From positions 1 through 30,881 of IMG/VR virus record IMGVR_UViG_3300043015_001368: 30,881 nt of DNA, one strand, 5' to 3'. This DNA comes from a virus. Position numbers and translations under genes: made by a program. This document shows positions 3,677-19,168 of this stretch, piece by piece; within the stretch, counting starts at the first letter, position 1, and each line of letters opens with the position of its first letter. The notes below the pieces were generated by a model. That model made no database searches and was not told the DNA's origin. It saw nothing but the letters and a program-made list of their open reading frames with translations.

Positions 3677-3934
3677 ATGGCAAAAAAGCAAAACCCTGCT
3701 GTTGAGGAAGAAATGAATGAAAAGGATTTCGCTCAACAAAAACAAGAGCTCATTGAATTCTACAATGACGCCGTTCCACAATTAGAAGCACAATTGCAAT
3801 ATGAAGATCTTGCTGCCGATGTAGAAGAAGCTAGACTTCGTAGATTGATGGCACAGATGAGAATTGCACAGTTAATGGCACCACCTCAAGAAGAAGAAGG
3901 TGAACTAGCTCCAAGAACCTTAAAGAGAAAGTAG
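3677..3934 (+). CDS. Small coiled-coil protein, first gene of late operon
   Basis: This 85-residue acidic protein has a basic start (MAKKQNP), a long heptad-like helix at residues about 17-70 (FAQQKQELIEFYNDAVPQLE, then EEARLRRLMAQMRIAQLM) and a basic tail (RTLKRK). It has no membrane segment. It is the first gene after the promoter at 3622-3653, and the endolysin gene starts one base after its stop. Small coiled-coil proteins at this position could be virion or assembly components; the function is unknown. It ends in TAG, which shows that TAG is a normal stop in this phage. Confidence 0.85.
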   Translation: MAKKQNPAVEEEMNEKDFAQQKQELIEFYNDAVPQLEAQLQYEDLAADVEEARLRRLMAQMRIAQLMAPPQEEEGELAPRTLKRK

Positions 3935-6942: not shown

Positions 6943-7457
6943 TAATCAGACTCTTTGATGTTCAAAATGGAAAAATAATTCCATCAGAGCACTGCTACAC
7001 AATAACTACACTTAATAAAATTATAGAAGAGTATCCGGAAGATCATCTTTCAATCTTTACGTATTTGTTCTATATGACGTGTCCTAATCCAGATCTAAAT
7101 CCTTTCTTTAATATTCCTGAGACGGAAAAAGAAACGATGATACTGGATGAAATAAACTGCGAGTTTTCTTTAGAAGATGACTTAGTTATAGCGGGATTAA
7201 ACCTATGTAAGAAATTATATGAAACACCAACCTATCGAGCGTATAAAGGTATATCCAGTATGTTGGATAGATTGGCAAAATACATGGAAACTACTCCTAT
7301 TGAACACGGTAGAGATGGTAACATTAACTCTATTGTAAATGCTGCTGCTAAGTTTGAACAAATAAGAAGCTCATTTAAAGGTGCTTACAGTGATCTTGTT
7401 GATGAACAAAAGAGTTCAGTTAGAGGAGGTCAAGGATTAGCTTACGATCAAATGTAA
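6939..7457 (+). CDS. Unknown protein upstream of TerL, candidate small terminase
   Basis: This 172-residue protein has an acidic N-terminal half and a helical, more polar C-terminal half (SSMLDRLAKYMETTPIEHGR, NSIVNAAAKFEQIRSSFKGA) ending in a Gly-rich tail (SSVRGGQGLAYDQM). It overlaps the TerL gene by one base (TAATG). No helix-turn-helix typical of small terminases is obvious, but its position directly before TerL and its helical C-terminus make a packaging accessory or small terminase subunit the most reasonable guess. The call rests on context. Confidence 0.6.
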   Translation: MIIRLFDVQNGKIIPSEHCYTITTLNKIIEEYPEDHLSIFTYLFYMTCPNPDLNPFFNIPETEKETMILDEINCEFSLEDDLVIAGLNLCKKLYETPTYRAYKGISSMLDRLAKYMETTPIEHGRDGNINSIVNAAAKFEQIRSSFKGAYSDLVDEQKSSVRGGQGLAYDQM

Positions 7458-9649
7458 TGGCAGAGCATAAGATTCCTACATATAAAGACGGTGACTGGTC
7501 GTACACAGAATTTGAAACCAGAAAAGACCTAGTAGATTTTTTAACTAAAATCTTTATGGAGCCTGGTGTATATGATCTAGATGAAACTTCTTTGTTGTTT
7601 AATGAGCAAGCTAGGAATTTTGATAAAAATGGTTTTTACTGTGCTGCACCAATTCGTACTAAAGACTTTATGACGTACTGGGAGTACGAAAAAGAAAAGT
7701 GCAGAAACGGTGTAATCTTTCACAGTAACAACAAGATCTTTTATTTAAGTAGAGATTATTACATGTGGTTAAACTTCTTGCCGATCTTTGATAAAGAAGA
7801 AAGGAAGTATGGTTTTGCTAAAGTTAGAGATGCTCAGTATCATATGGCGTTATATGAAACGCTTGCTGAACTAAACTACAAGCATGTAGCAATCTTAAAG
7901 AAACGTCAGATAGCATCTTCTTATTTTCACATGGCAAAGGTTCTTAATCTTTTCTGGTTTGAAGAAGGTTCTATTGCTAAAATTGGTGCATCACTTAAAG
8001 ACTACATAAATGATAAAGGATCTTGGAAATTTCTTGATGAATATCGGAACTTCCTTAACGAACACACTGCTTGGTACAGACCTTGTTCTCCTGATAAAGT
8101 ACTTATTTGGGAACAAAAGATTGAAGTAAGATTAAACAATAGAAAAACTACTAGAGGTCTGAACTCTAAGATACAAGGGATGTCTTTTGAAAAAGATGCT
8201 ACTACTGGTGTAGGTGGTCCTTGTACTATATTTTTTCACGAGGAAGCAGGTATTGCTCCTAAGATGGATAAGACATACGAGTACATCAGACCTGCGATGT
8301 CTTCAGGTATGATGACTACTGGTGTATTTATAGCAGCAGGATCTGTTGGTGATCTTGATCAATGTGGTCCACTTAAACAAATGATGCTTTATCCTGAGAT
8401 TAATGACATCTATGAAGTAGAAACAAACTTATTAGATGCAGATGGTACCTGGGGTAAATCTGGTTTGTTTATTCCTGAGCAGTGGAGTATGCCTCCTTTT
8501 ATTGATGAATGGGGGAACTCTAAGGTTGAGGAAGCTCTTGAAGCTATTAAAGAAGAAAGACTAAAGTGGAAAAAAGATTTAAGTCCTGAACAGTATCAGC
8601 TTCGTATTTCTCAGAAGCCTACTAATATTGCTGAAGCATTTGCTTATAGAAAGGAATCTGTATTTCCTATTAATCTGGTAGCTGCTCAGGCAAAAAAGAT
8701 TGAGGATAAAGAATACTATACAGAGTACATAGATCTTGAAAGAGATGAGACAGATACGGTAATTGCAAAAAGAAGTAATCGTATACCTATTTCAGAATTT
8801 CCTATTAGCAAGAAGACTGAAGATAAAGGAGGAGTGTTGTGTGTTTGGGAAAGACCGGTTCACAACAAACCAGAGTTTGGTTTATACTACGCATCTATTG
8901 ACCCCGTATCAGAAGGTAAAACAACCACCTCAGACTCGCTCTGTAGCATTTTTGTATACAAGAACCCAGTGGAGGTTACCAGAGAGACAGAAAACGGCAT
9001 AGAGAGCTTTATAGAAGGTGATAAGATTGTAGCAGCCTGGTGTGGTAGATATGACAATATTAAGACCACACATGAAATGCTGGAGAATATTATCGAATGG
9101 TATAATGCATGGACCCTTGTAGAAAATAACATTTCGCTTTTTATTCAATACATGATTTCTAAAAGAAAGCAACGATTCCTGGTTCCTAAAAACCAGATCT
9201 TGTTTTTAAAAGATATAGGTAGTAACAAAAGTGTTTACCAAGAATACGGTTGGAAAAACACAGGAACCTTATTTAAAAGTCACCTCATATCATATGCTAT
9301 TGAATTCCTAAGAGAAGAAATAGATGTAGAAAATGAAGTAGATGGTACTGTAATTAAAGCGAAGTACGGAGTAGAAAGAATACCTGATCCGATGCTGCTT
9401 AAAGAGATGTTAGCATATCATCCGGGTGTAAACGTTGACCGTTTAGTTGCGTTTTCAGCTCTTGTAGCTTTTGCTAAAGTTCAACAATCTAATAGAGGTT
9501 ATGCAAAAAGGCAAGAGAAGACCACTGAATCTTTGGAGAAATCAGATAATTTGTATAAATTAAAGATGAGCCCCTTTAGGCACATGGGAGGTAAAACTTC
9601 TCAGCTTTTAGGTGGTTCAAAGAAAAGCGCGTTTAAAAATCTGAAATGA
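7457..9649 (+). CDS. terL: Terminase large subunit (TerL)
   Basis: This 730-residue packaging motor drives ATP-dependent DNA translocation into the prohead and cuts the DNA. The N-terminal ATPase has a degenerate Walker A (LKKRQIASSYFHMAK, residues about 147-161, lacking the classical GxxxxGKS) and Walker B IFFHEEAG (258-265) with its Glu pair. A coupling region reads TGVFIAAGS. The C-terminal RNase H-like nuclease shows the first Asp in YYASIDPVSEG (D482), an acidic residue in TLVENN (E556) and a late Asp in GVNVDRLVAFSALVAF (D661). A basic tail follows. The length fits crAss-like and related phages. The stop overlaps the 38-residue gene. Confidence 0.92.
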   Translation: MAEHKIPTYKDGDWSYTEFETRKDLVDFLTKIFMEPGVYDLDETSLLFNEQARNFDKNGFYCAAPIRTKDFMTYWEYEKEKCRNGVIFHSNNKIFYLSRDYYMWLNFLPIFDKEERKYGFAKVRDAQYHMALYETLAELNYKHVAILKKRQIASSYFHMAKVLNLFWFEEGSIAKIGASLKDYINDKGSWKFLDEYRNFLNEHTAWYRPCSPDKVLIWEQKIEVRLNNRKTTRGLNSKIQGMSFEKDATTGVGGPCTIFFHEEAGIAPKMDKTYEYIRPAMSSGMMTTGVFIAAGSVGDLDQCGPLKQMMLYPEINDIYEVETNLLDADGTWGKSGLFIPEQWSMPPFIDEWGNSKVEEALEAIKEERLKWKKDLSPEQYQLRISQKPTNIAEAFAYRKESVFPINLVAAQAKKIEDKEYYTEYIDLERDETDTVIAKRSNRIPISEFPISKKTEDKGGVLCVWERPVHNKPEFGLYYASIDPVSEGKTTTSDSLCSIFVYKNPVEVTRETENGIESFIEGDKIVAAWCGRYDNIKTTHEMLENIIEWYNAWTLVENNISLFIQYMISKRKQRFLVPKNQILFLKDIGSNKSVYQEYGWKNTGTLFKSHLISYAIEFLREEIDVENEVDGTVIKAKYGVERIPDPMLLKEMLAYHPGVNVDRLVAFSALVAFAKVQQSNRGYAKRQEKTTESLEKSDNLYKLKMSPFRHMGGKTSQLLGGSKKSAFKNLK

Positions 9650-9763: not shown

Positions 9764-12511
9764 ATGCAGGTATTTAATGCAATGCAACTAAAGAACGGTG
9801 CGAAAGCAGAGTTCAAAAAGATGGGTAACCTTACCCAACCTATACAGTTTTTACCTAAGAAAGATAAAGACGAAGAGTGGGCAGCATGGAATATTGACTG
9901 GATTGAAACTCAAGGTTTGCGCCAGCTAAGAAGAAACTCTAGAAGACTTCTTAAAAACTATAAACTTGCAAAAGGTATTATCGATAAGACTGACTATATA
10001 GTCGAAGAAGATAATGAATACATGGATTTGGTAGACATCTTAACTCAAGAAGATGAATCCGCATTAGAGATTAAATTCTACCCTATCATTCCTAACGTAA
10101 TTAATGTACTAACTGCTGAATTTGCTAAGCGTTCTAATCGTGTACAGTTCAGAGCAGTAGATGATATATCATATTTGGAAATGCTTGAGCAAAAAAGAGA
10201 GATGATCGAGAAGACACTCCTTGCTGAAGCAGAGATGAAAATGGCAAATAAACTTGCTAATCTTGGTATTGATGTAGAAAGTGAAGAGTATCAGAACGCG
10301 CTTAATCCTGAAAATCTTAAAACTCTTCCTGAAATTGAGGACTTCTTCCGCAAAGACTACAGATCTCTCATTGAAGAGTGGGCAATGCACCAGCTAAAAG
10401 TAGATGAGGAAAGATTTAAACTCCAAGAATTAGAAGAGAGAGCTTTCCGTGATATGCTTATTACAGATAGAGAGTTCTGGCATTTCCGTATGGGTGAAGA
10501 TGATTATGAATTAGAATTGTGGAATCCTGTTCTAACTTTCTACCATAAGTCTCCCGATGTACGATACATTTCTGATAGCAATTATGTAGGTAAGTCAGAT
10601 ATGATGACAGTCGCTGATGTGATTGATAAGTTTGGTTATTTGATGACTGAAGAGCAATTACGTGAGCTAGAGTCTATTTACCCGATTAAGTCAGCTGCAT
10701 ACGCTATTGGTGGTCAACAAAATGATGGTAGTTACTATGATGCTACTCAGTCCCATAAATGGAATACTGAGATGCCATCATTAGGGTACCGTCAATTTAT
10801 GGCAACCAGAGATGCTAATAGTGGACATAACGGAGATGTAGTTAACTGGATTCTCGGAGAGTCTGAAGACTTATTTGAATTTGGTACTACAAACTTAATT
10901 AGAGTTACTACGGTATACTGGAAATCCCAGCGTAAAGTAGGACACCTCTACCGTGTTGATGAGAATGGAAATGTTTACCAGGATATTGTTGATGAATCAT
11001 ACAAGGTGGTAGATAAACCATTGTACAACAATACTTTGATCAAACAAAAAACTAAAGAAACATTAGTATTCGGTGATCATATTGATTGGATCTGGATTAA
11101 TGAAACTTGGGGTGGTATTAAAATCGGACCTAATTATCCTTCTCACTGGGGAATGCCTAGAGAAAAAGATAGCATGAGTCCGATGTACATTGGTATTAAT
11201 GAAAACAAACCAGGTAGACTAAGATTCCAATTTAAAGGTGAAGACAGTCTTTATGGTTGTAAGTTACCGGTTGAAGGTTCTGTTTTCTCAGATAGAAATA
11301 CTAGATCTACATCACTTGTAGATTTGATGAAGCCTTATCAGATTGGATACAACATTGTAAACAATCAGATTGCAGACATTCTTGTAGATGAATTAGGTAC
11401 AATCATTCTCCTAGATCAAAACTCATTACCTCGTCACTCGCTAGGAGAAGACTGGGGTAAGAATAACTTAGCAAAAGCATATGTAGCAATGAAGAATTTC
11501 CAGATGTTACCTCTGGATACTTCTATTACTAACACTGAAAACGCTTTAAACTTCCAGCACTATCAGACACTTAATCTTGAACAAACAAATAGATTGATGT
11601 CTAGAACTCAGCTTGCAAACTACTTCAAGCAGCAAGCAATGGAAACCATTGGTATTACACCTCAGCGTTTAGGGGAAGCAGTTGAACAACCGACCGCTAC
11701 AGGATTACGTATGGCTATCGCTAACTCTTATGCACAGACAGAACAATACTTTATTCAGCATTCAGATTACTTGATGCCGAGAGTACATAAGATGCGTACA
11801 GATATCGCACAATACTACCATAGCACAAATCCTTCTATTCGTCTTCAGTACATGACAACTGTTGATGAAAAGATTAACTTCCAAATGAACGGTACGGATT
11901 TGATGCTAAGAGATATAAATATTTTCTGTACAACTAAGACTAATCAAAGACAGATCTTAGAGCAGCTCAAACAACTTGCAATGACTAACAATACTACAGG
12001 AGCATCTATTTATGATCTGGGTAATATTGTTAAGGCCGATAATATAGCAGAGGTTACCAACATTCTTAAGGATGCTGAAGCTAAGCAAGAAGCATTTAAG
12101 CAGCAAGAAATGCAGCAAATGCAGCAGATGAAAGAGCAAGAGATTCAAGCTAAGCAGCAAGAAGCGCAGATGAAGCTACAGTTCGAACAAGAAGAAAACG
12201 AAAAAGAACGTCAGAAAGACATTACAGTAGCAGAAATCAGAGCAGCTGGTTATGGATCTATGCAGGACATTAATCAGAATCAGCAGTCAGACTTCCAAGA
12301 TTATATGGTAAAGCTTCGTCAGGAAGATAGAATCCAGGAACAACTCAACCTAAAAAAGGAGGACGCTATCAATAAGCGAGCTATGACTAAGGAGCAAATG
12401 CAGATTGAAAGAGAAAAGCTAGCTACTCAAAGAGATGTTGCAAGTAAGAAGCTTGAAATTGCAAAAGAGAACAAGAATAGATATGATAATCCACCTAAGA
12501 AAGATTCTTAA
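9764..12511 (+). CDS. Portal protein
   Basis: At 915 residues this is a large portal, which should form the dodecameric ring at the capsid vertex through which TerL moves DNA. The N-terminal region (FYPIIPNVINVLTAEFAKRS, residues about 105-125) and the PTATGLRMAIANSYAQTEQYF stretch (about 644-665) are typical of phage portals. From about residue 765 the chain becomes a long Gln/Glu/Lys-rich coiled coil (QQEMQQMQQMKEQEIQAKQQ) to near the end, as in the portals of crAss-like phages. It follows TerL and the microprotein. The stop is followed by a 132-bp gap that probably contains a control region. Confidence 0.85.
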   Translation: MQVFNAMQLKNGAKAEFKKMGNLTQPIQFLPKKDKDEEWAAWNIDWIETQGLRQLRRNSRRLLKNYKLAKGIIDKTDYIVEEDNEYMDLVDILTQEDESALEIKFYPIIPNVINVLTAEFAKRSNRVQFRAVDDISYLEMLEQKREMIEKTLLAEAEMKMANKLANLGIDVESEEYQNALNPENLKTLPEIEDFFRKDYRSLIEEWAMHQLKVDEERFKLQELEERAFRDMLITDREFWHFRMGEDDYELELWNPVLTFYHKSPDVRYISDSNYVGKSDMMTVADVIDKFGYLMTEEQLRELESIYPIKSAAYAIGGQQNDGSYYDATQSHKWNTEMPSLGYRQFMATRDANSGHNGDVVNWILGESEDLFEFGTTNLIRVTTVYWKSQRKVGHLYRVDENGNVYQDIVDESYKVVDKPLYNNTLIKQKTKETLVFGDHIDWIWINETWGGIKIGPNYPSHWGMPREKDSMSPMYIGINENKPGRLRFQFKGEDSLYGCKLPVEGSVFSDRNTRSTSLVDLMKPYQIGYNIVNNQIADILVDELGTIILLDQNSLPRHSLGEDWGKNNLAKAYVAMKNFQMLPLDTSITNTENALNFQHYQTLNLEQTNRLMSRTQLANYFKQQAMETIGITPQRLGEAVEQPTATGLRMAIANSYAQTEQYFIQHSDYLMPRVHKMRTDIAQYYHSTNPSIRLQYMTTVDEKINFQMNGTDLMLRDINIFCTTKTNQRQILEQLKQLAMTNNTTGASIYDLGNIVKADNIAEVTNILKDAEAKQEAFKQQEMQQMQQMKEQEIQAKQQEAQMKLQFEQEENEKERQKDITVAEIRAAGYGSMQDINQNQQSDFQDYMVKLRQEDRIQEQLNLKKEDAINKRAMTKEQMQIEREKLATQRDVASKKLEIAKENKNRYDNPPKKDS

Positions 12512-12643: not shown

Positions 12644-13879
12644 ATGAGCGAATTAAACCAACAAACAACAGTTAGTGAAGTAGAAGTTGATGATCTTGAT
12701 GCCTTATTTGATGGGGCTCCTGGTGCAGACAGCGTTACTTTACCAACTGAAGAAACTAAAAAACCTAACGTTCTTTCAAATGCGGGCGCAGTAGATATGA
12801 GTTTCCTAGAAGGTGACTCGGAAGAAGCTGCTGAAGAAGAGACAGAAAACTCTACTGAAGATGTTGCTGAAACTAAAGAAGATCCTAATGAGATTCTTGC
12901 AGAGTTAGATGCAACAGATGAAGAAGAGGTAGTTGAAAAGAAGAAAACGGGGAGAGCTAAAAAAGGTGATCCTATTAGCATTTTTAACAAGCTTTTTGAG
13001 GATGAAGTTATCATTCCTTTTGATGATGATAAAGGTCTTGAAGAGTACTCTGTAAATGACTGGAAAGAGCTAATTGAAGCTAACTACGCAGAACGCGAAA
13101 AAAAGCTTCAAGAAGAAGTACCACGTCAGTTCTTTGAAGCGCTTCCTGAAGAACTTCAGTATGCTGCTAAATATGTGATGGACGGTGGTCAAGATCTTAA
13201 AGGTTTGTTCCGTGCATTGTCTTCTGTTGAAGAACAGAGACAACTGGATGTATCAAACGAAAATGATCAAGAAAGAATTGTACGTCAATATTTACAAGCT
13301 ACAGGTTTTGGTAATGATGCAGAAATTGCAGATGAAATCGAAACATGGAAAGATCTAGGTAGACTTGAGCAACAAGCTAAGAAGTGGAAACCTAAGTTGG
13401 ATGCTATGCAAGAAGAAGTGATTGCACAGAGACTTGCAGAACAAGAACAAATGAAGGCACAACAAGAAAAAGCTTCTCAAGATTACATGGACAATGTATA
13501 TACTGCACTGAAAGAAGGCGAGCTTAACGGTGTTAAGTTGGATAAAAAAACACAATCTGCTTTATACGCAGGTTTGGTTCAACCTAACTATAATTCAGTT
13601 CGTGGAGGACAAACTAATCTCCTCGGTCACCTTTTAGAAAAATATCAGTTTGTAGAACCTAACTACACTTTGATTTCTGAAGCGTTGTGGCTGCTATCTG
13701 ATCCGGAAGGTTACCGCGGTAAGATTGCAGAGATTGGTAAAAAAGAAGCAGTTGAGAAAACAGTAAGACAGCTTAAGACAGAGCAGTCTAAACGTTTGAG
13801 CTCTACTGCTCCTGAAGAAAAGGAAACCAAAAAAGGAAGATCGATTCCTAGACAGAATAATATTTTTAAAAGATTTTAA
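12644..13879 (+). CDS. Probable head scaffolding protein
   Basis: This 411-residue protein lies directly before the major capsid gene. The first 110 residues are extremely acidic and low in complexity (GDSEEAAEEETENSTEDVAE). The middle is helical and charged, with a coiled coil near residues 240-285 (RLAEQEQMKAQQEKASQDYM). The C-terminus is short and basic (KKGRSIPRQNNIFKRF). An acidic helical body with a basic capsid-binding tail next to the capsid gene is the usual layout of phage scaffolds. No protease motif is visible in it or its neighbours. The role is inferred from position and composition. Confidence 0.65.
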   Translation: MSELNQQTTVSEVEVDDLDALFDGAPGADSVTLPTEETKKPNVLSNAGAVDMSFLEGDSEEAAEEETENSTEDVAETKEDPNEILAELDATDEEEVVEKKKTGRAKKGDPISIFNKLFEDEVIIPFDDDKGLEEYSVNDWKELIEANYAEREKKLQEEVPRQFFEALPEELQYAAKYVMDGGQDLKGLFRALSSVEEQRQLDVSNENDQERIVRQYLQATGFGNDAEIADEIETWKDLGRLEQQAKKWKPKLDAMQEEVIAQRLAEQEQMKAQQEKASQDYMDNVYTALKEGELNGVKLDKKTQSALYAGLVQPNYNSVRGGQTNLLGHLLEKYQFVEPNYTLISEALWLLSDPEGYRGKIAEIGKKEAVEKTVRQLKTEQSKRLSSTAPEEKETKKGRSIPRQNNIFKRF

Positions 13880-13910: not shown

Positions 13911-15524
13911 ATGGCAACACCTGTTTTAAACAATGGGATTTTCTTGAGAGACACTAGCTACAAAGCTAGCTCTCACGTTGATTCCTATCACCTAGCTAAC
14001 ATGCTTGGTGGAACAGAACCTACTGATATGGGTCCTGTTGATCTTTGGGCAATGGCTCAGAAAGTTGAAATGCCACTATACCAGATGGCATCTTTTGGTG
14101 GTAAAAACACTATCAACGTTGATAACGCTCGTGGTGAGTACAAGTGGCAGGTTCCTGTAGCTCAGGATCTTCCTTACATCTTGGAATCACAAACTGGTTC
14201 TCTCGGTGCTGATGGCGTACCTTTCACCATTAAATTGAACAAGCGTTCTTTTGGTCACGGTGATATCATCACTTATGACAAGTACAACGGTATGGAAATG
14301 TACATCACTTCTGATGACATTCTTCCTGTAACCGATGGTTTTGTTTACACTGTACAGTTGGTTAACAACGACAACAGTGCTCCTATCGATGCTGACACTT
14401 ACTTGAAGGCTGGTACTAAATTGTTCCGTAAAGGTTCTGCTCGTGGTGAATACGGTGAGCGTTTCTCTGACATCGGTGAATTCGGTACTGGATTCCGTGA
14501 GTTCTACAACTTCGTAGGTGGTGCTGAAGCTCACGTACACTACTCTGTTTCTTCTCGTGCAGACATGATGATCAAAGGTGGTATGCGTGCAGATGGTACT
14601 GTACCTGTAACTGAGATCTGGAGAAACTTCGATCAGAACATGGATCCATCTATCACTAGCTTGGAAGACATGGTATCTAGAATGGGTAAAGATGCTGTTA
14701 AGCGTGCATTCGATAACGGTACTCTTTCTCGTACTTTCTTGACATCTATGGAAGCTGCTCACTTGAGCAAAATTGCTAGCGATATCGAAACTTACTTGAT
14801 GTGGGGACAAGGTGGTCGCGTTAAGCAAGACGGACCAGATGATGTACGTCTATCTGTAGGTTTGTGGAAGCAATTGGATAACTCATTCAAGCGCATCTAC
14901 AACAAGTCTGGTTTCTCTCTAGACATGTTCAAAGCAGAATTGTACAACTTCTACCAAGGTCGTGTAGAGTTACAAGGACCAGATCCAAATCGTCAGATTA
15001 TCGTTCAAACTGGTTTGGGTGGTATGAAGATGGTGAACGAAGCTATCAAAGCTGAAGCTAACGCATCAGGTTTGTTGGTTCGCGCTACTGATATTGGTGC
15101 AGTTTCAGGTACTAACATGGACTTGAACTTTGGTTTCGCTTACACTTCTTACGTTATTCCATTCTTGGCAAACGTTAAGTTCGTGTTGAACCCTGCATTT
15201 GATAACTTGCACACTAACGATATTGAGAACCCTCTTATCGATGGTCACCCATTGAGCTCTTACAGCTTTGTAGTATTTGATGTTACTGAAAACGGTAACG
15301 ACAACATCTACTTGTTGAAGTTGAACTGGGATAACCAATTGAAGTGGTTCTACCAAAATGGTACTATGGATTACATGGGACGTACTCAAGGATTCCAGTC
15401 TTCTGGAAACTTTAATGGTTACCGTGTATTCATGTCTCAAACGATGCCAGCTATCTGGGTTAAAGACGCTACTAAAGTGTTGAAGATCGTAATGAGAAAC
15501 CCAATCACTGGTGGATCATTCTAA
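13911..15524 (+). CDS. Major capsid protein
   Basis: This 537-residue protein follows the scaffold and is closed by a strong terminator. Codon use differs plainly from its neighbours: TTG, AAC, TTC, GAC and CGT dominate, whereas TerL and portal use AAT, TTT and AGA, as expected for a very abundant protein. The sequence starts with an extended arm (TPVLNNGIFLRDTSYKASS) and continues through a globular core with many Gly/Asp turns, consistent with an HK97-type shell protein. I see no diagnostic motif. The call rests on order, length and codon bias. Confidence 0.85.
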   Translation: MATPVLNNGIFLRDTSYKASSHVDSYHLANMLGGTEPTDMGPVDLWAMAQKVEMPLYQMASFGGKNTINVDNARGEYKWQVPVAQDLPYILESQTGSLGADGVPFTIKLNKRSFGHGDIITYDKYNGMEMYITSDDILPVTDGFVYTVQLVNNDNSAPIDADTYLKAGTKLFRKGSARGEYGERFSDIGEFGTGFREFYNFVGGAEAHVHYSVSSRADMMIKGGMRADGTVPVTEIWRNFDQNMDPSITSLEDMVSRMGKDAVKRAFDNGTLSRTFLTSMEAAHLSKIASDIETYLMWGQGGRVKQDGPDDVRLSVGLWKQLDNSFKRIYNKSGFSLDMFKAELYNFYQGRVELQGPDPNRQIIVQTGLGGMKMVNEAIKAEANASGLLVRATDIGAVSGTNMDLNFGFAYTSYVIPFLANVKFVLNPAFDNLHTNDIENPLIDGHPLSSYSFVVFDVTENGNDNIYLLKLNWDNQLKWFYQNGTMDYMGRTQGFQSSGNFNGYRVFMSQTMPAIWVKDATKVLKIVMRNPITGGSF

Positions 15525-15670: not shown

Positions 15671-16681
15671 ATGACAACAATTATTGAAAAGTATCAAGCA
15701 AACAAGAAAAAGCAGATTGCTATTCGACCTATGTTCAACCCAGGAAGAGACAATATGGGTCTAGAAAAATATAATCTGACCTTGTTTGATAATGTTTATC
15801 ATGAAGAGCAACTAGCTTGTCTAGAGGCTAATGGTGTTAAACGTTATGTAACTGGACTTAATGAATTTGCACCAGAGATTAAGCTTCTACCTCCTTCTGA
15901 GAGAGATGCAAAATCTAAGCAAATCAGAGAGCTCGTATCTGAGCTTGAAAAAGAATTAGCAGCTAATATTGTAAACCCAGATGATGCAGAGTTTTGGAAT
16001 AAGATTAAACTTCTTCGTCCGGATAATGATGAGTTTTGGGGTAGAATCAGTCTTCGCTGCGGTAATGAACCAGTTTATCTAGATCCTGCTAAAGATCCTT
16101 ATGATCTTATTAAGCTTTGTGCAATTGAAGCAGGTGGTTTTTCAATGGTTGGTAAAAGCTTAGAAGCTGCAAGCAAAATGGCTAAAGCACCTAAGTTTTA
16201 TTTAGACAAAGTAGAAACTACGGTTTCACATAGAACTGAAATTACCAAGCTTCGTAATAAAGCTCTATCGGAGCTTCAAAAACTTTACGATAAGAATGCT
16301 AATAAGTTATTCTTGATTGCTAAGGTAATCGATGTAGATAGTGTTCAGTATACCAAGAGTACACCTAATGACGTACTATATGAAAATATGGATGCGTTTA
16401 TTAATGGTTTATCTGTAGAAAAAGATAAAAAGAAAACAGCACAGCAGTTCCTTTCAGTTGTAGATGAGGATATGGAAACATTGAAACTACGTGCAATTGT
16501 GAAGGATTCAGCTAGATATAAGGTTATTACTAATAAATCAGATGGTATGATTTACCATACCTTCAGTGGTGCACAAATGGGACGCACACCTAGTGATGTT
16601 ATCGAGTTCCTAAAAAATCCACTAAACGAAGAAATTCTGATGCAGGTAATGACCGATGTAGAAAGTTATTGGAACAACTAA
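15671..16681 (+). CDS. Conserved-looking virion-module protein, unknown function
   Basis: This 336-residue protein is the first gene after the capsid terminator. It is soluble and mixed alpha/beta. An N-terminal part carries the motif FNPGRDNMGLEKYNLTLFDN. A Lys/Glu-rich helical stretch covers residues about 75-100. A middle segment (EPVYLDPAKDPYDLIKLCAI) is followed by a long helical region (THRTEITKLRNKALSELQKL-type) and a C-terminal domain with IYHTFSGAQMGRTPSDVIEF. No catalytic motif is recognised. Position after the capsid gene suggests a head-completion, minor capsid or internal protein. Confidence 0.75.
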   Translation: MTTIIEKYQANKKKQIAIRPMFNPGRDNMGLEKYNLTLFDNVYHEEQLACLEANGVKRYVTGLNEFAPEIKLLPPSERDAKSKQIRELVSELEKELAANIVNPDDAEFWNKIKLLRPDNDEFWGRISLRCGNEPVYLDPAKDPYDLIKLCAIEAGGFSMVGKSLEAASKMAKAPKFYLDKVETTVSHRTEITKLRNKALSELQKLYDKNANKLFLIAKVIDVDSVQYTKSTPNDVLYENMDAFINGLSVEKDKKKTAQQFLSVVDEDMETLKLRAIVKDSARYKVITNKSDGMIYHTFSGAQMGRTPSDVIEFLKNPLNEEILMQVMTDVESYWNN

Positions 16682-16864: not shown

Positions 16865-17566
16865 ATGAACAACGCAACTCTACAACTCAAAATTAAACAA
16901 AGGCTGAATAAGCTTGCTAGCAACGATTATGATAATATCGAGTGCTGGCAAATTGTTGAAGCTTTTAATAAAGCGCAGCTAGAATGGGTGCGTAGACAGT
17001 TGCATGCTAGTAACATCTTCAAAGAAGGTGACGAGCAATCAAAGAGAAGAATAGACGACCTGCAAATTTTAATGCAACAAACCAACTTAAATGTGCAGGA
17101 CCGTGTTTTATTTTATGAGTCAAGCGAGCTACCCTCAGATTACCTAGAGTATAAGAGGGTAGCTACACTTGCAAAAGACGAGTGTTGTCCTCCTAGAGGC
17201 ATGACAGTTTACTTAGCAGAAGAAGCTAATGTAGATCAATTACTTAGAGACGTAAACAAAAAACCTAGTTGGGAGTGGGGAGAAATGTTTGCTACCCTTA
17301 TTGGTAACCGAGTACGTCTATATACAAATGATGAGTTTGATTTAGTAAGACCGTCTTTGTATTACTATAGAAAACCAATCAACATTCAAATCGCAGGATG
17401 TAAAGATCCCTATACACAAGCTTTATCAGCTGCAGATGTAGAATGCGAATTTAAAGATGATATTGTTGAATTGTTGATTGATGAAACAGTAAGTATTCTA
17501 GCTGGTGATATTGAGTCTATTATTCAGTATCAGCGCGGTTCTCAATCTGCAGAAAAGAATAACTAA
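16865..17566 (+). CDS. Putative head-tail connector/adaptor protein
   Basis: This 233-residue protein has a helical N-terminal part (TLQLKIKQRLNKLASNDYDN, then WQIVEAFNKAQLEWVRRQL), a middle beta region (SSELPSDYLEYKRVATLAKD, with an adjacent Cys-Cys), and a C-terminal strand-plus-helix part (RPSLYYYRKPINIQIAGCKD, followed by DDIVELLIDETVSILAGDIE). The tyrosine-rich YYRKP strand followed by a helix with 'ELLIDE' is seen in phage head-tail adaptors, which sit under the portal as a ring. It overlaps the Dps-like gene by one base (TAATG). Identification is by pattern and position. Confidence 0.6.
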   Translation: MNNATLQLKIKQRLNKLASNDYDNIECWQIVEAFNKAQLEWVRRQLHASNIFKEGDEQSKRRIDDLQILMQQTNLNVQDRVLFYESSELPSDYLEYKRVATLAKDECCPPRGMTVYLAEEANVDQLLRDVNKKPSWEWGEMFATLIGNRVRLYTNDEFDLVRPSLYYYRKPINIQIAGCKDPYTQALSAADVECEFKDDIVELLIDETVSILAGDIESIIQYQRGSQSAEKNN

Positions 17567-17991
17567 TGGCACTACAAAGATTATCTAGACCAAAGGGTGG
17601 TGAAAAAGCAGATGAACTAGTTGGAATTCTAGTAGCAGAGCTTTTAAATGCTTCTGTTTTAACGCACAAATTGCACCTAAAAGTTTCAGGTACAGGTTCT
17701 TATGCTCAGCATATTGCGCTAAACGAGTTTTATGATGCAATTAAAGATGGAGCAGACTCACTTGCTGAACAATATCAAGGACACAAAATGATAATTCTAG
17801 ATACAGACAAAGCACTTATGGACAGTTATATTTTAACATCCGTAGATGATTGTTTGGATTATTTAGAAAAATTGTATAATTTAATTAGTGAGGTACAGTC
17901 GATGATGACGTGTTCGTCTATTATAAACGAAATGGATACACTGAAGTCAACGATTAATACCGCTAAGTATAAGTTGAACTTTTTGAACTAA
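17566..17991 (+). CDS. Dps/ferritin-like four-helix protein in the virion module
   Basis: This 141-residue, all-helical protein reads as a ferritin-like bundle with a Dps-type centre. In helix A and its sequel, LLNASVLTHKLHLKVSGTGS contains H37. H49 (AQHIALNEFYD) lies 12 residues later, D64 (GADSLAEQY) 15 after that, and E68 four later. These are the spacings of the Dps ferroxidase residues (H51, H63, D78 and E82 in E. coli Dps). The equivalent of D67 is Asn53, so one supporting ligand is absent. Dps proteins oxidise and store iron and protect DNA in a dodecamer. Here the gene is coupled to the connector gene and followed by the abundant structural protein, so a virion or assembly role is as likely as iron chemistry. 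Confidence 0.7.
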   Translation: MALQRLSRPKGGEKADELVGILVAELLNASVLTHKLHLKVSGTGSYAQHIALNEFYDAIKDGADSLAEQYQGHKMIILDTDKALMDSYILTSVDDCLDYLEKLYNLISEVQSMMTCSSIINEMDTLKSTINTAKYKLNFLN

Positions 17992-18019: not shown

Positions 18020-19168
18020 ATGGCTTACTTTCCACATGCCTATCAAAAACTCCTAGTAGCTAAGGCTCTTGCAGGTGCAGGAAAAGCTTCTAGCTCTCTA
18101 GGAATCGGTGAAGTAGCTCTTTTGAATGCAAAAGACTACATCTCTCTTGCTGCTCCTGCAGCAGGTATCAATCAATACATTCTTGCTCAAGGTAGCTTGC
18201 ATGATGTTGATAAACTTGGACCATTTCACGGTGGTTACAAAGAATCTGTAAAATCTAAAGGAATCAATCCTCGTTATGTTTCTGACATCTGGGTTTCTCG
18301 TGCTTCTGATGAAGTAACTTCTCAGTTAACTGTAGAAGCAGAAGGTGATTGTTTTGCTTGTGGTGTAGAGCGCTACTTGCGTTTGGACGTTAAAGGTTCT
18401 CCTGCTCTTCGTTTCTTAGGTCGTAACGCTTACTTTGTAGCTGATTGGACTGAGAAGTGTTGTGTAGGCGATCAAACTTCTGTTGATCCTTTCGTTGTTC
18501 TTTCTGCTTGGGCTGATCAAGTTAATGGTGATCCTTTGGTTTCTCCATTTGTTACAGCAGATGTAGAGATGTGGGATGCTGAAGCTAACGAAGGAGCTGG
18601 TGCTTGGGTATCTGCTGTTGGGCACACTGCAACTACTTCTGGTCACGGTAAATTCCGTATCGTTATTAATGCTAAACCTACTTCAGCCGTATCTACTCAC
18701 TTCGGTGATGCAGGATTCCGTCCTACTGATCACTATGAGTTGGAGCCTTCTCAGTTGTATGCTTCTGAAGTTGATGAAACTGGTGACGCTTGTAGCGTAA
18801 TTTGTACTAGTATTGCACGTACTGTTGGTGTTCAATCTCGTGGTTCTGGTGAATCTGTTATTCGTCAGTTGATTTTAAGTAACCGTTACGCTCAAGATCC
18901 TTTCCAACAAGATAGCAGAATGCGTGAAATTTTGGATGAAACTGCATTCAAAGTAGATCGTACTGCTAAATACGATATGTTCTATCTACTTCACAGTGTT
19001 CCTCGTAAGAGCAACCCTAGTGGTACTATGGATAACGATCAATACTTGATCTCTATCGCTGTTGATGTTGCTCACGGTTGGACTAACCAACTAGAAGCAA
19101 TGCTTCTTGAACTAGGTAAACTAGCTGAAATTTATGACGCTGGTGCAGCTGCATTGAAAGAACTCTAA
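18020..19168 (+). CDS. Abundant structural protein, probable major tail protein
   Basis: This 382-residue protein has a codon bias like the capsid gene (CGT, GCT, TCT, GTT) and its own strong terminator 22 bases after the stop, both signs of a very abundant virion protein. It starts MAYFPHAYQKLLVAKALAGA, has a Gly/Ser-rich linker (GKASSSLGIGEVALLNAKDY), several Cys (GDCFACG, EKCC) and a beta-rich body (VKGSPALRFLGRNAYFVADW). The motif DPLVSPFVTADVEMW resembles segments of tail sheath or tube proteins. If the phage is short-tailed, a head-decoration or fibre protein is the alternative. Confidence 0.6.
   Translation: MAYFPHAYQKLLVAKALAGAGKASSSLGIGEVALLNAKDYISLAAPAAGINQYILAQGSLHDVDKLGPFHGGYKESVKSKGINPRYVSDIWVSRASDEVTSQLTVEAEGDCFACGVERYLRLDVKGSPALRFLGRNAYFVADWTEKCCVGDQTSVDPFVVLSAWADQVNGDPLVSPFVTADVEMWDAEANEGAGAWVSAVGHTATTSGHGKFRIVINAKPTSAVSTHFGDAGFRPTDHYELEPSQLYASEVDETGDACSVICTSIARTVGVQSRGSGESVIRQLILSNRYAQDPFQQDSRMREILDETAFKVDRTAKYDMFYLLHSVPRKSNPSGTMDNDQYLISIAVDVAHGWTNQLEAMLLELGKLAEIYDAGAAALKEL

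Follow-up and report, generated by a model that had tools for sequence, protein, structure and literature searches.

A Dps-like mini-ferritin gene and FtnA-type ferritins exchanged at one slot in the structural module of an environmental crAss-like phage clade

Dps mini-ferritins, such as HpNAP, L. innocua Dps and E. coli Dps, share a common four-helix bundle with equivalents of H51, H63, D78 and E82 of the E. coli protein. They are characterized by assembly into dodecamers with ferroxidase sites across the two-fold interface, by peroxide-driven iron oxidation and by mineral storage. Phages are already known to carry such genes, including Gratiaviridae and 36 other gut phages, for which a role in oxidative stress has been proposed (Benler et al. 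2021, PMC8008677), and Lactobacillus phages, in which DPS genes sit near replication genes (PMC6669764). Phage-borne Dps has so far been read as an auxiliary stress gene, and the consulted sections of Benler et al. describe no fixed slot, ferritin exchange or tag. A parallel by analogy is offered by family 1 encapsulins, shells of the HK97-fold lineage that load ferritin-like cargo via short terminal targeting peptides (PMC8346489). For crAss-like phages, neither a genome survey (PMC7886860) nor a review of Crassvirales (PMC10136315) mentions "ferritin" or "Dps", and the ring, cargo and mass-spectrometry sections of the crAss001 virion atlas (PMC10172136) name no ferritin. A search of largely open-access literature returned no paper pairing Crassvirales with ferritin. 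Phage Dps genes themselves are already known, but we came across no earlier description of the fixed slot and the tag presented here.

The Dps-like gene, its predicted fold and its metal site

The window analyzed here, a 30.9-kb virus record taken whole, is from a crAss-like phage belonging to an environmental crAss-like clade. The slot-bearing phages described below, of which none is known to us in culture, probably infect Bacteroidota, judging from gene content. On the plus strand, as are the g411, ring, Dps-like and g382 features below, it encodes in crAss order a terminase large subunit (7457-9649; phrog_6681, E 1.6e-62), a portal protein (9764-12511; phrog_6547, E 1.1e-92) and a major capsid protein of the Crass_capsid family (13911-15524; PF23898, E 4.9e-28; phrog_11589). 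The window DNA had no similarity match among annotated phages, and when one clade member was searched against genomes of bacteria and archaea, no relative could be confirmed, and hence no prophage or host copy. An HU/IHF-like DNA-binding gene (PF00216; 5216-5602) lies upstream of the terminase gene. A 336-aa structural-module gene (15671-16681, plus strand) is conserved beside a 233-aa ring or head-tail adaptor-like gene (16865-17566; phrog_29507, E 1.7e-10), the product of which aligns with the "ring protein" of csAssE-Sib, an epsilon phage (hhalign probability 99.5%), and also resembles structural proteins from the Cellulophaga phages phi17:2 and phi4:1. The start codon of the Dps-like gene (17566-17991; 141 aa) shares one base with the stop codon of this ring-like gene (TAATG), bearing out the coupling to a connector-like gene that an earlier note on this DNA had described. 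The 382-aa gene g382 (18020-19168), whose product starts MAYFPHAYQK, comes next; it had no match among PHROG, Pfam and PDB profiles and no relatives in phage records, and PDB profile searches with the ring, g382 and 336-aa proteins returned no credible match.

Alignment of the 141-aa protein to E. coli Dps (phmmer, 1dps_A) pairs residues 16-84 with 30-98 of the chain, at an offset of 14 at both ends, and places H37, H49, D64 and E68 (spacings of 12, 15 and 4) on H51, H63, D78 and E82, exactly as the earlier note had read them. The corresponding codons lie at 17665-17676 (H34 to H37, an HxxH ending helix A, as in HpNAP), 17710-17712 (H49) and 17755-17769 (D64 to E68). The spacing was reproduced by 51 of 200,000 shuffles of the protein; homology is independent of this statistic, because it is carried by profile matches to PHROG_858 (E 1.8e-19) and Pfam DUF5856 (49.0 bits, gathering cut-off 34.6). 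The same profile family includes T4 rI.-1 and portal-adjacent podovirus genes, with all ligands retained.

The AlphaFold2 model, built from an alignment of 47 relatives (pLDDT 88, pTM 0.82), has four helices (residues 12-39, 45-74, 93-111 and 117-139) preceded by a predicted disordered N-tail (residues 1-10, pLDDT 59). Among solved structures, the best Foldseek matches were Dps proteins (TM 0.78), a VIA structure comparison with MsDps2 gave Z 16.9 and an rmsd of 1.9 over 129 residues, and a PDB search with the clade profile reached HpNAP at E 1.1e-5. Structure prediction and fold search, as the earlier note had proposed, confirm the protein as a Dps-like mini-ferritin with a predicted four-helix ferritin-like bundle, which would presumably assemble into a Dps-like oligomer. 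Compared with described Dps mini-ferritins, however, the model lacks the BC-loop helix, a coil being predicted between helices 45-74 and 93-111, and the protein has no counterpart of D67 and no Trp following the first His. It also bears a conserved tag at its N-terminus and is encoded by a phage virion-module gene.

All five of H34, H37, H49, D64 and E68 are unchanged throughout 66 unique relatives, a larger set of 108 rows, 54 of 54 unique podovirus relatives and 59 of 59 members of a broader set, although this invariance is partly circular where relatives were gathered by patterns containing His or Asp/Glu motifs. The sample of 44 rows anchored on the neighboring ring gene, gathered without use of the Dps-like protein and free of this circularity, shows the same five residues in 44 of 44. 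They are also retained in T4 rI.-1 and in jumbo-phage and podovirus members. H34, which the earlier note did not mention, is as invariant as the four Dps-equivalent ligands. These alignments point to strong selection on the metal site, and the Dps-like protein is probably an active ferroxidase. The earlier note was right that Asn53 (17722-17724) replaces a supporting ligand, the equivalent of E. coli Dps D67; its doubt about activity on that account carries less weight, as the position varies throughout the family, relatives having N, G, A, Q, R, D or E there, and Asn53 is therefore not decisive. With a Dps-type predicted fold and ligands that never vary in the sets tested, neither of the refuting outcomes named in the earlier note was seen, and its proposal of a mini-ferritin inside a virion module is supported.

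The slot and its exchangeable occupants

The order of ring gene, Dps-like gene and g382 holds in 154 of 154 informative loci, with the ring gene as the left and g382 as the right border of the slot. Where loci were sampled by the ring gene, the next gene was Dps-like in 46 loci and a different protein in 5, with none in about 26. Since about one third of these loci are without the Dps-like gene, it is dispensable; the slot is empty in the related phages phi17:2, Lbo-JY46 and csAssE-Sib.

The alternative occupant is a full-length bacterial ferritin of the FtnA type (FTN; PF00210, E 1e-24), with ferritin 3qz3 as its best PDB match (E 2e-22). An FTN-based search yielded 34 loci, or 41 when pooled with earlier loci, and the gene directly follows the ring gene in 40 of the 41. 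It is followed in these 40 by g382 (31 loci), by a Dps-like gene and g382 (6 loci, in which the two ferritin-type genes are adjacent) or by a contig edge (3 loci). All six FtnA ferroxidase ligands, at positions that we take from E. coli FtnA and with which the PDB alignment agrees, are retained in 28 of 28 unique slot FTN sequences. In this, and in belonging to PF00210, slot FTN resembles bacterial FtnA, whereas its tagged N-terminus and variable linker set it apart; it is absent from the window. In a tree of 133 ring proteins, slot content needs at least 23 changes (minimum possible 3; mean of shuffles 40), and for the ferritin label alone, 9 changes are forced by well-supported branches. As judged from gene content and this tree, the slot holds a Dps-like gene, an FtnA-type ferritin, both or nothing, with repeated exchange.

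Several slot FTN genes have LKRP N-termini (L199:1465-1995, L201:4702-5232, L204:4705-5238, L220:4717-5310 and L341-L372), and that of L201 falls in PHROG_16594, labelled "unknown function". Two gaps between the ring gene and g382 hold other short reading frames and no ferritin, namely a 57-aa holin-like ORF (L213) and a 35-aa Lys-rich peptide (L242).

Ferritin-type genes occur in head/tail modules of at least three phage groups. DSL-LC05-type podoviruses have a Dps-like gene directly beside the portal gene, at all 78 loci away from contig edges. A second crAss-like lineage, whose capsid protein matches phrog_11589 (E 3e-120), has Dps and/or ferritin genes between the portal gene and the scaffold-like and capsid genes, and the gut Steigviridae phage cr108_1 has such a gene inside its structural module. 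T4 rI.-1 lies outside the structural module. This gene (L171:1320-1706; T4 58819-59205), of the same Dps-like family, adjoins the lysis-inhibition gene rI. In the second crAss-like lineage, the Dps-like and ferritin genes are found in either order (L352:5534-6498; L374-L389). Dps-like domains were also seen inside annotated prohead proteases of uncultured phages (BFVD A0A6J7WPK9, A0A6J7XDU5 and A0A6J7WIS1).

The N-terminal tag and the tail of g411

Both slot occupants begin with [I/L]-x-R(-P), followed by a Ser/Ala/Pro/Gly-rich linker of variable length. In the window, this tag is R5-L6-S7-R8-P9 (17578-17592) within MALQRLSRP; other examples are MEKPRMLKRD in Dps relatives and MEKSRMLKRP and MADLLKRP in ferritins. 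The pattern [IL][KSPQNT]R occurs in 116 of 129 Dps N-tails (residue shuffles, at most 19) and 21 of 25 FTN N-tails (shuffles, at most 8), as against 35 of 1719 N-termini of neighboring proteins. None was found in the T4 and podovirus DUF5856 members compared, the gene neighborhoods of which also differ from those of this clade. Tag codons vary synonymously (Leu TTA, CTT, CTA and TTG; Arg AGA, CGT and CGC), with AT-rich codons dominating; a purely RNA-level constraint is unlikely, since several synonymous codons are used. A terminal peptide of targeting type common to unrelated Dps and FTN proteins is an encapsulin-like trait, its targeting role being putative. In contrast to encapsulins, the setting here is a phage with portal and tail, the tag sequence is unrelated and docking on the shell is hypothetical.

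A motif resembling the tag ends the product of g411, a 411-aa scaffold-like gene (12644-13879) between the portal and major capsid genes. We infer its role as a scaffold, which would fit the predicted helical structure with disordered ends and a positional counterpart in phi17:2 that is absent from the annotated structural proteins. Its C-terminal tail, GRSIPRQNNIFKRF (13835-13876), follows the clade motif [KT][IL]xR[PQ]..N[IM]FKR, which was found at the g411 C-terminus in 125 of 129 cases, empty-slot phages included. The motif is clade-specific, being absent in phi17:2, csAssE-Sib, Lbo-JY46, cr127_1 and cr108_1. Among the Dps tails, 5 of 129 extend the match into the NIF part (KISRTNIF or similar). 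Common docking of the tag and the g411 tail, linked by this short motif, is offered as a working hypothesis, since the two showed no sign of co-variation at the core residue. Elsewhere in the window, an 85-aa gene before the amidase gene (3677-3934) has a C-terminus, ...APRTLKRK, that resembles the tag.

Possible roles of the slot ferritins

Because two unrelated ferritins exchange in the slot with their ligands intact, iron oxidation would be the function kept by selection, and because both carry the tag, they would act at a common site, the simplest candidate being the particle as it assembles. Our preferred reading, with a probability of roughly 0.5, is that a tagged ferroxidase joins the virion during assembly, by recruitment or packaging, in the manner of encapsulin cargo. 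The Dps-like protein would be expressed together with the late genes, its gene being coupled to that of the tail ring. The flexible [I/L]-x-R-P tag of the protein would probably dock it on the particle under assembly, where the tail of the scaffold-like g411 may use the same site. It may then oxidize and sequester Fe(II), whether inside the virion or at the procapsid and the DNA just packaged, and removal of Fe(II) would lessen Fenton damage. Within this reading, the docking partner, presence in the virion and protection of DNA are what we infer. A more tentative extension is that virions are natural ferritin carriers, in which a scaffold-tail-like tag would load exchangeable Dps or FtnA proteins into the capsid, or attach them to the particle, so that the virion acts in the way of an encapsulin and the next host receives a ferroxidase and perhaps iron.

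Alternatively, the protein may be a late auxiliary enzyme confined to the infected cell, where it would take up iron and reduce the peroxide stress acting on both host and replicating phage DNA; its late-operon position would then serve expression timing only, and the N-tail may aid stability or bind DNA. This is a serious, if less probable, alternative: the presence/absence pattern is typical of an accessory gene, T4 rI.-1 lies outside the structural module, and phage DPS genes elsewhere have been so interpreted (PMC8008677, PMC6669764). It leaves unexplained, however, the same tag on Dps and an unrelated ferritin in one slot and the entry of such genes into several head/tail modules, and we rank virion recruitment somewhat ahead of a purely cellular role. 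Of the uses that the earlier note had proposed, iron loading of the virion and shielding of DNA from Fenton chemistry both stand, and the shared tag tilts the choice towards particle association.

Improbable, by comparison, is a DNA-condensing nucleoid protein in the style of Dps, whose basic N-tail and cage would help to compact DNA, or to protect it, as it is packaged; a parallel would be the IHF genes in structural blocks of crAss-like phages. N-tail net charge is mostly +2 to +3 (+2 in the window protein), the window has an HU-like gene, and IHF has been proposed to compact DNA in crAss-like phages (PMC7886860). On the other hand, whole-protein pI is about 5 to 6 (5.1 in the window protein) and the metal ligands are invariantly retained. 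FtnA-type ferritins, moreover, are as a rule not DNA-binding.

The earlier note's third use, a structural plug or ring made from the four-helix bundle, here taken to sit in the portal-tail channel, is very unlikely and was rejected. Direct coupling to the ring gene and the portal-adjacent position in podoviruses would suit it, but the gene is missing in many close relatives, a different ferritin substitutes for it, and every metal ligand is invariant in both unrelated types, which argues against a plug. Chance likeness of a helical protein to Dps, to which the weakness of single-sequence hits on Dps chains in the PDB (E no better than 0.01) might point, was dismissed as negligible given the PHROG_858/DUF5856 and HpNAP profile matches, the Foldseek fold match and residue invariance.

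Two unrelated ferritins with one tag and intact ligands in a fixed slot suggest that selection favors iron oxidation in connection with the particle itself. This would provide a testable link between phage capsids and encapsulins, and is relevant to the question of iron carriage by phage particles in water and sediment. It may also give a functional reading to the uncharacterized Pfam family DUF5856, T4 rI.-1 included.
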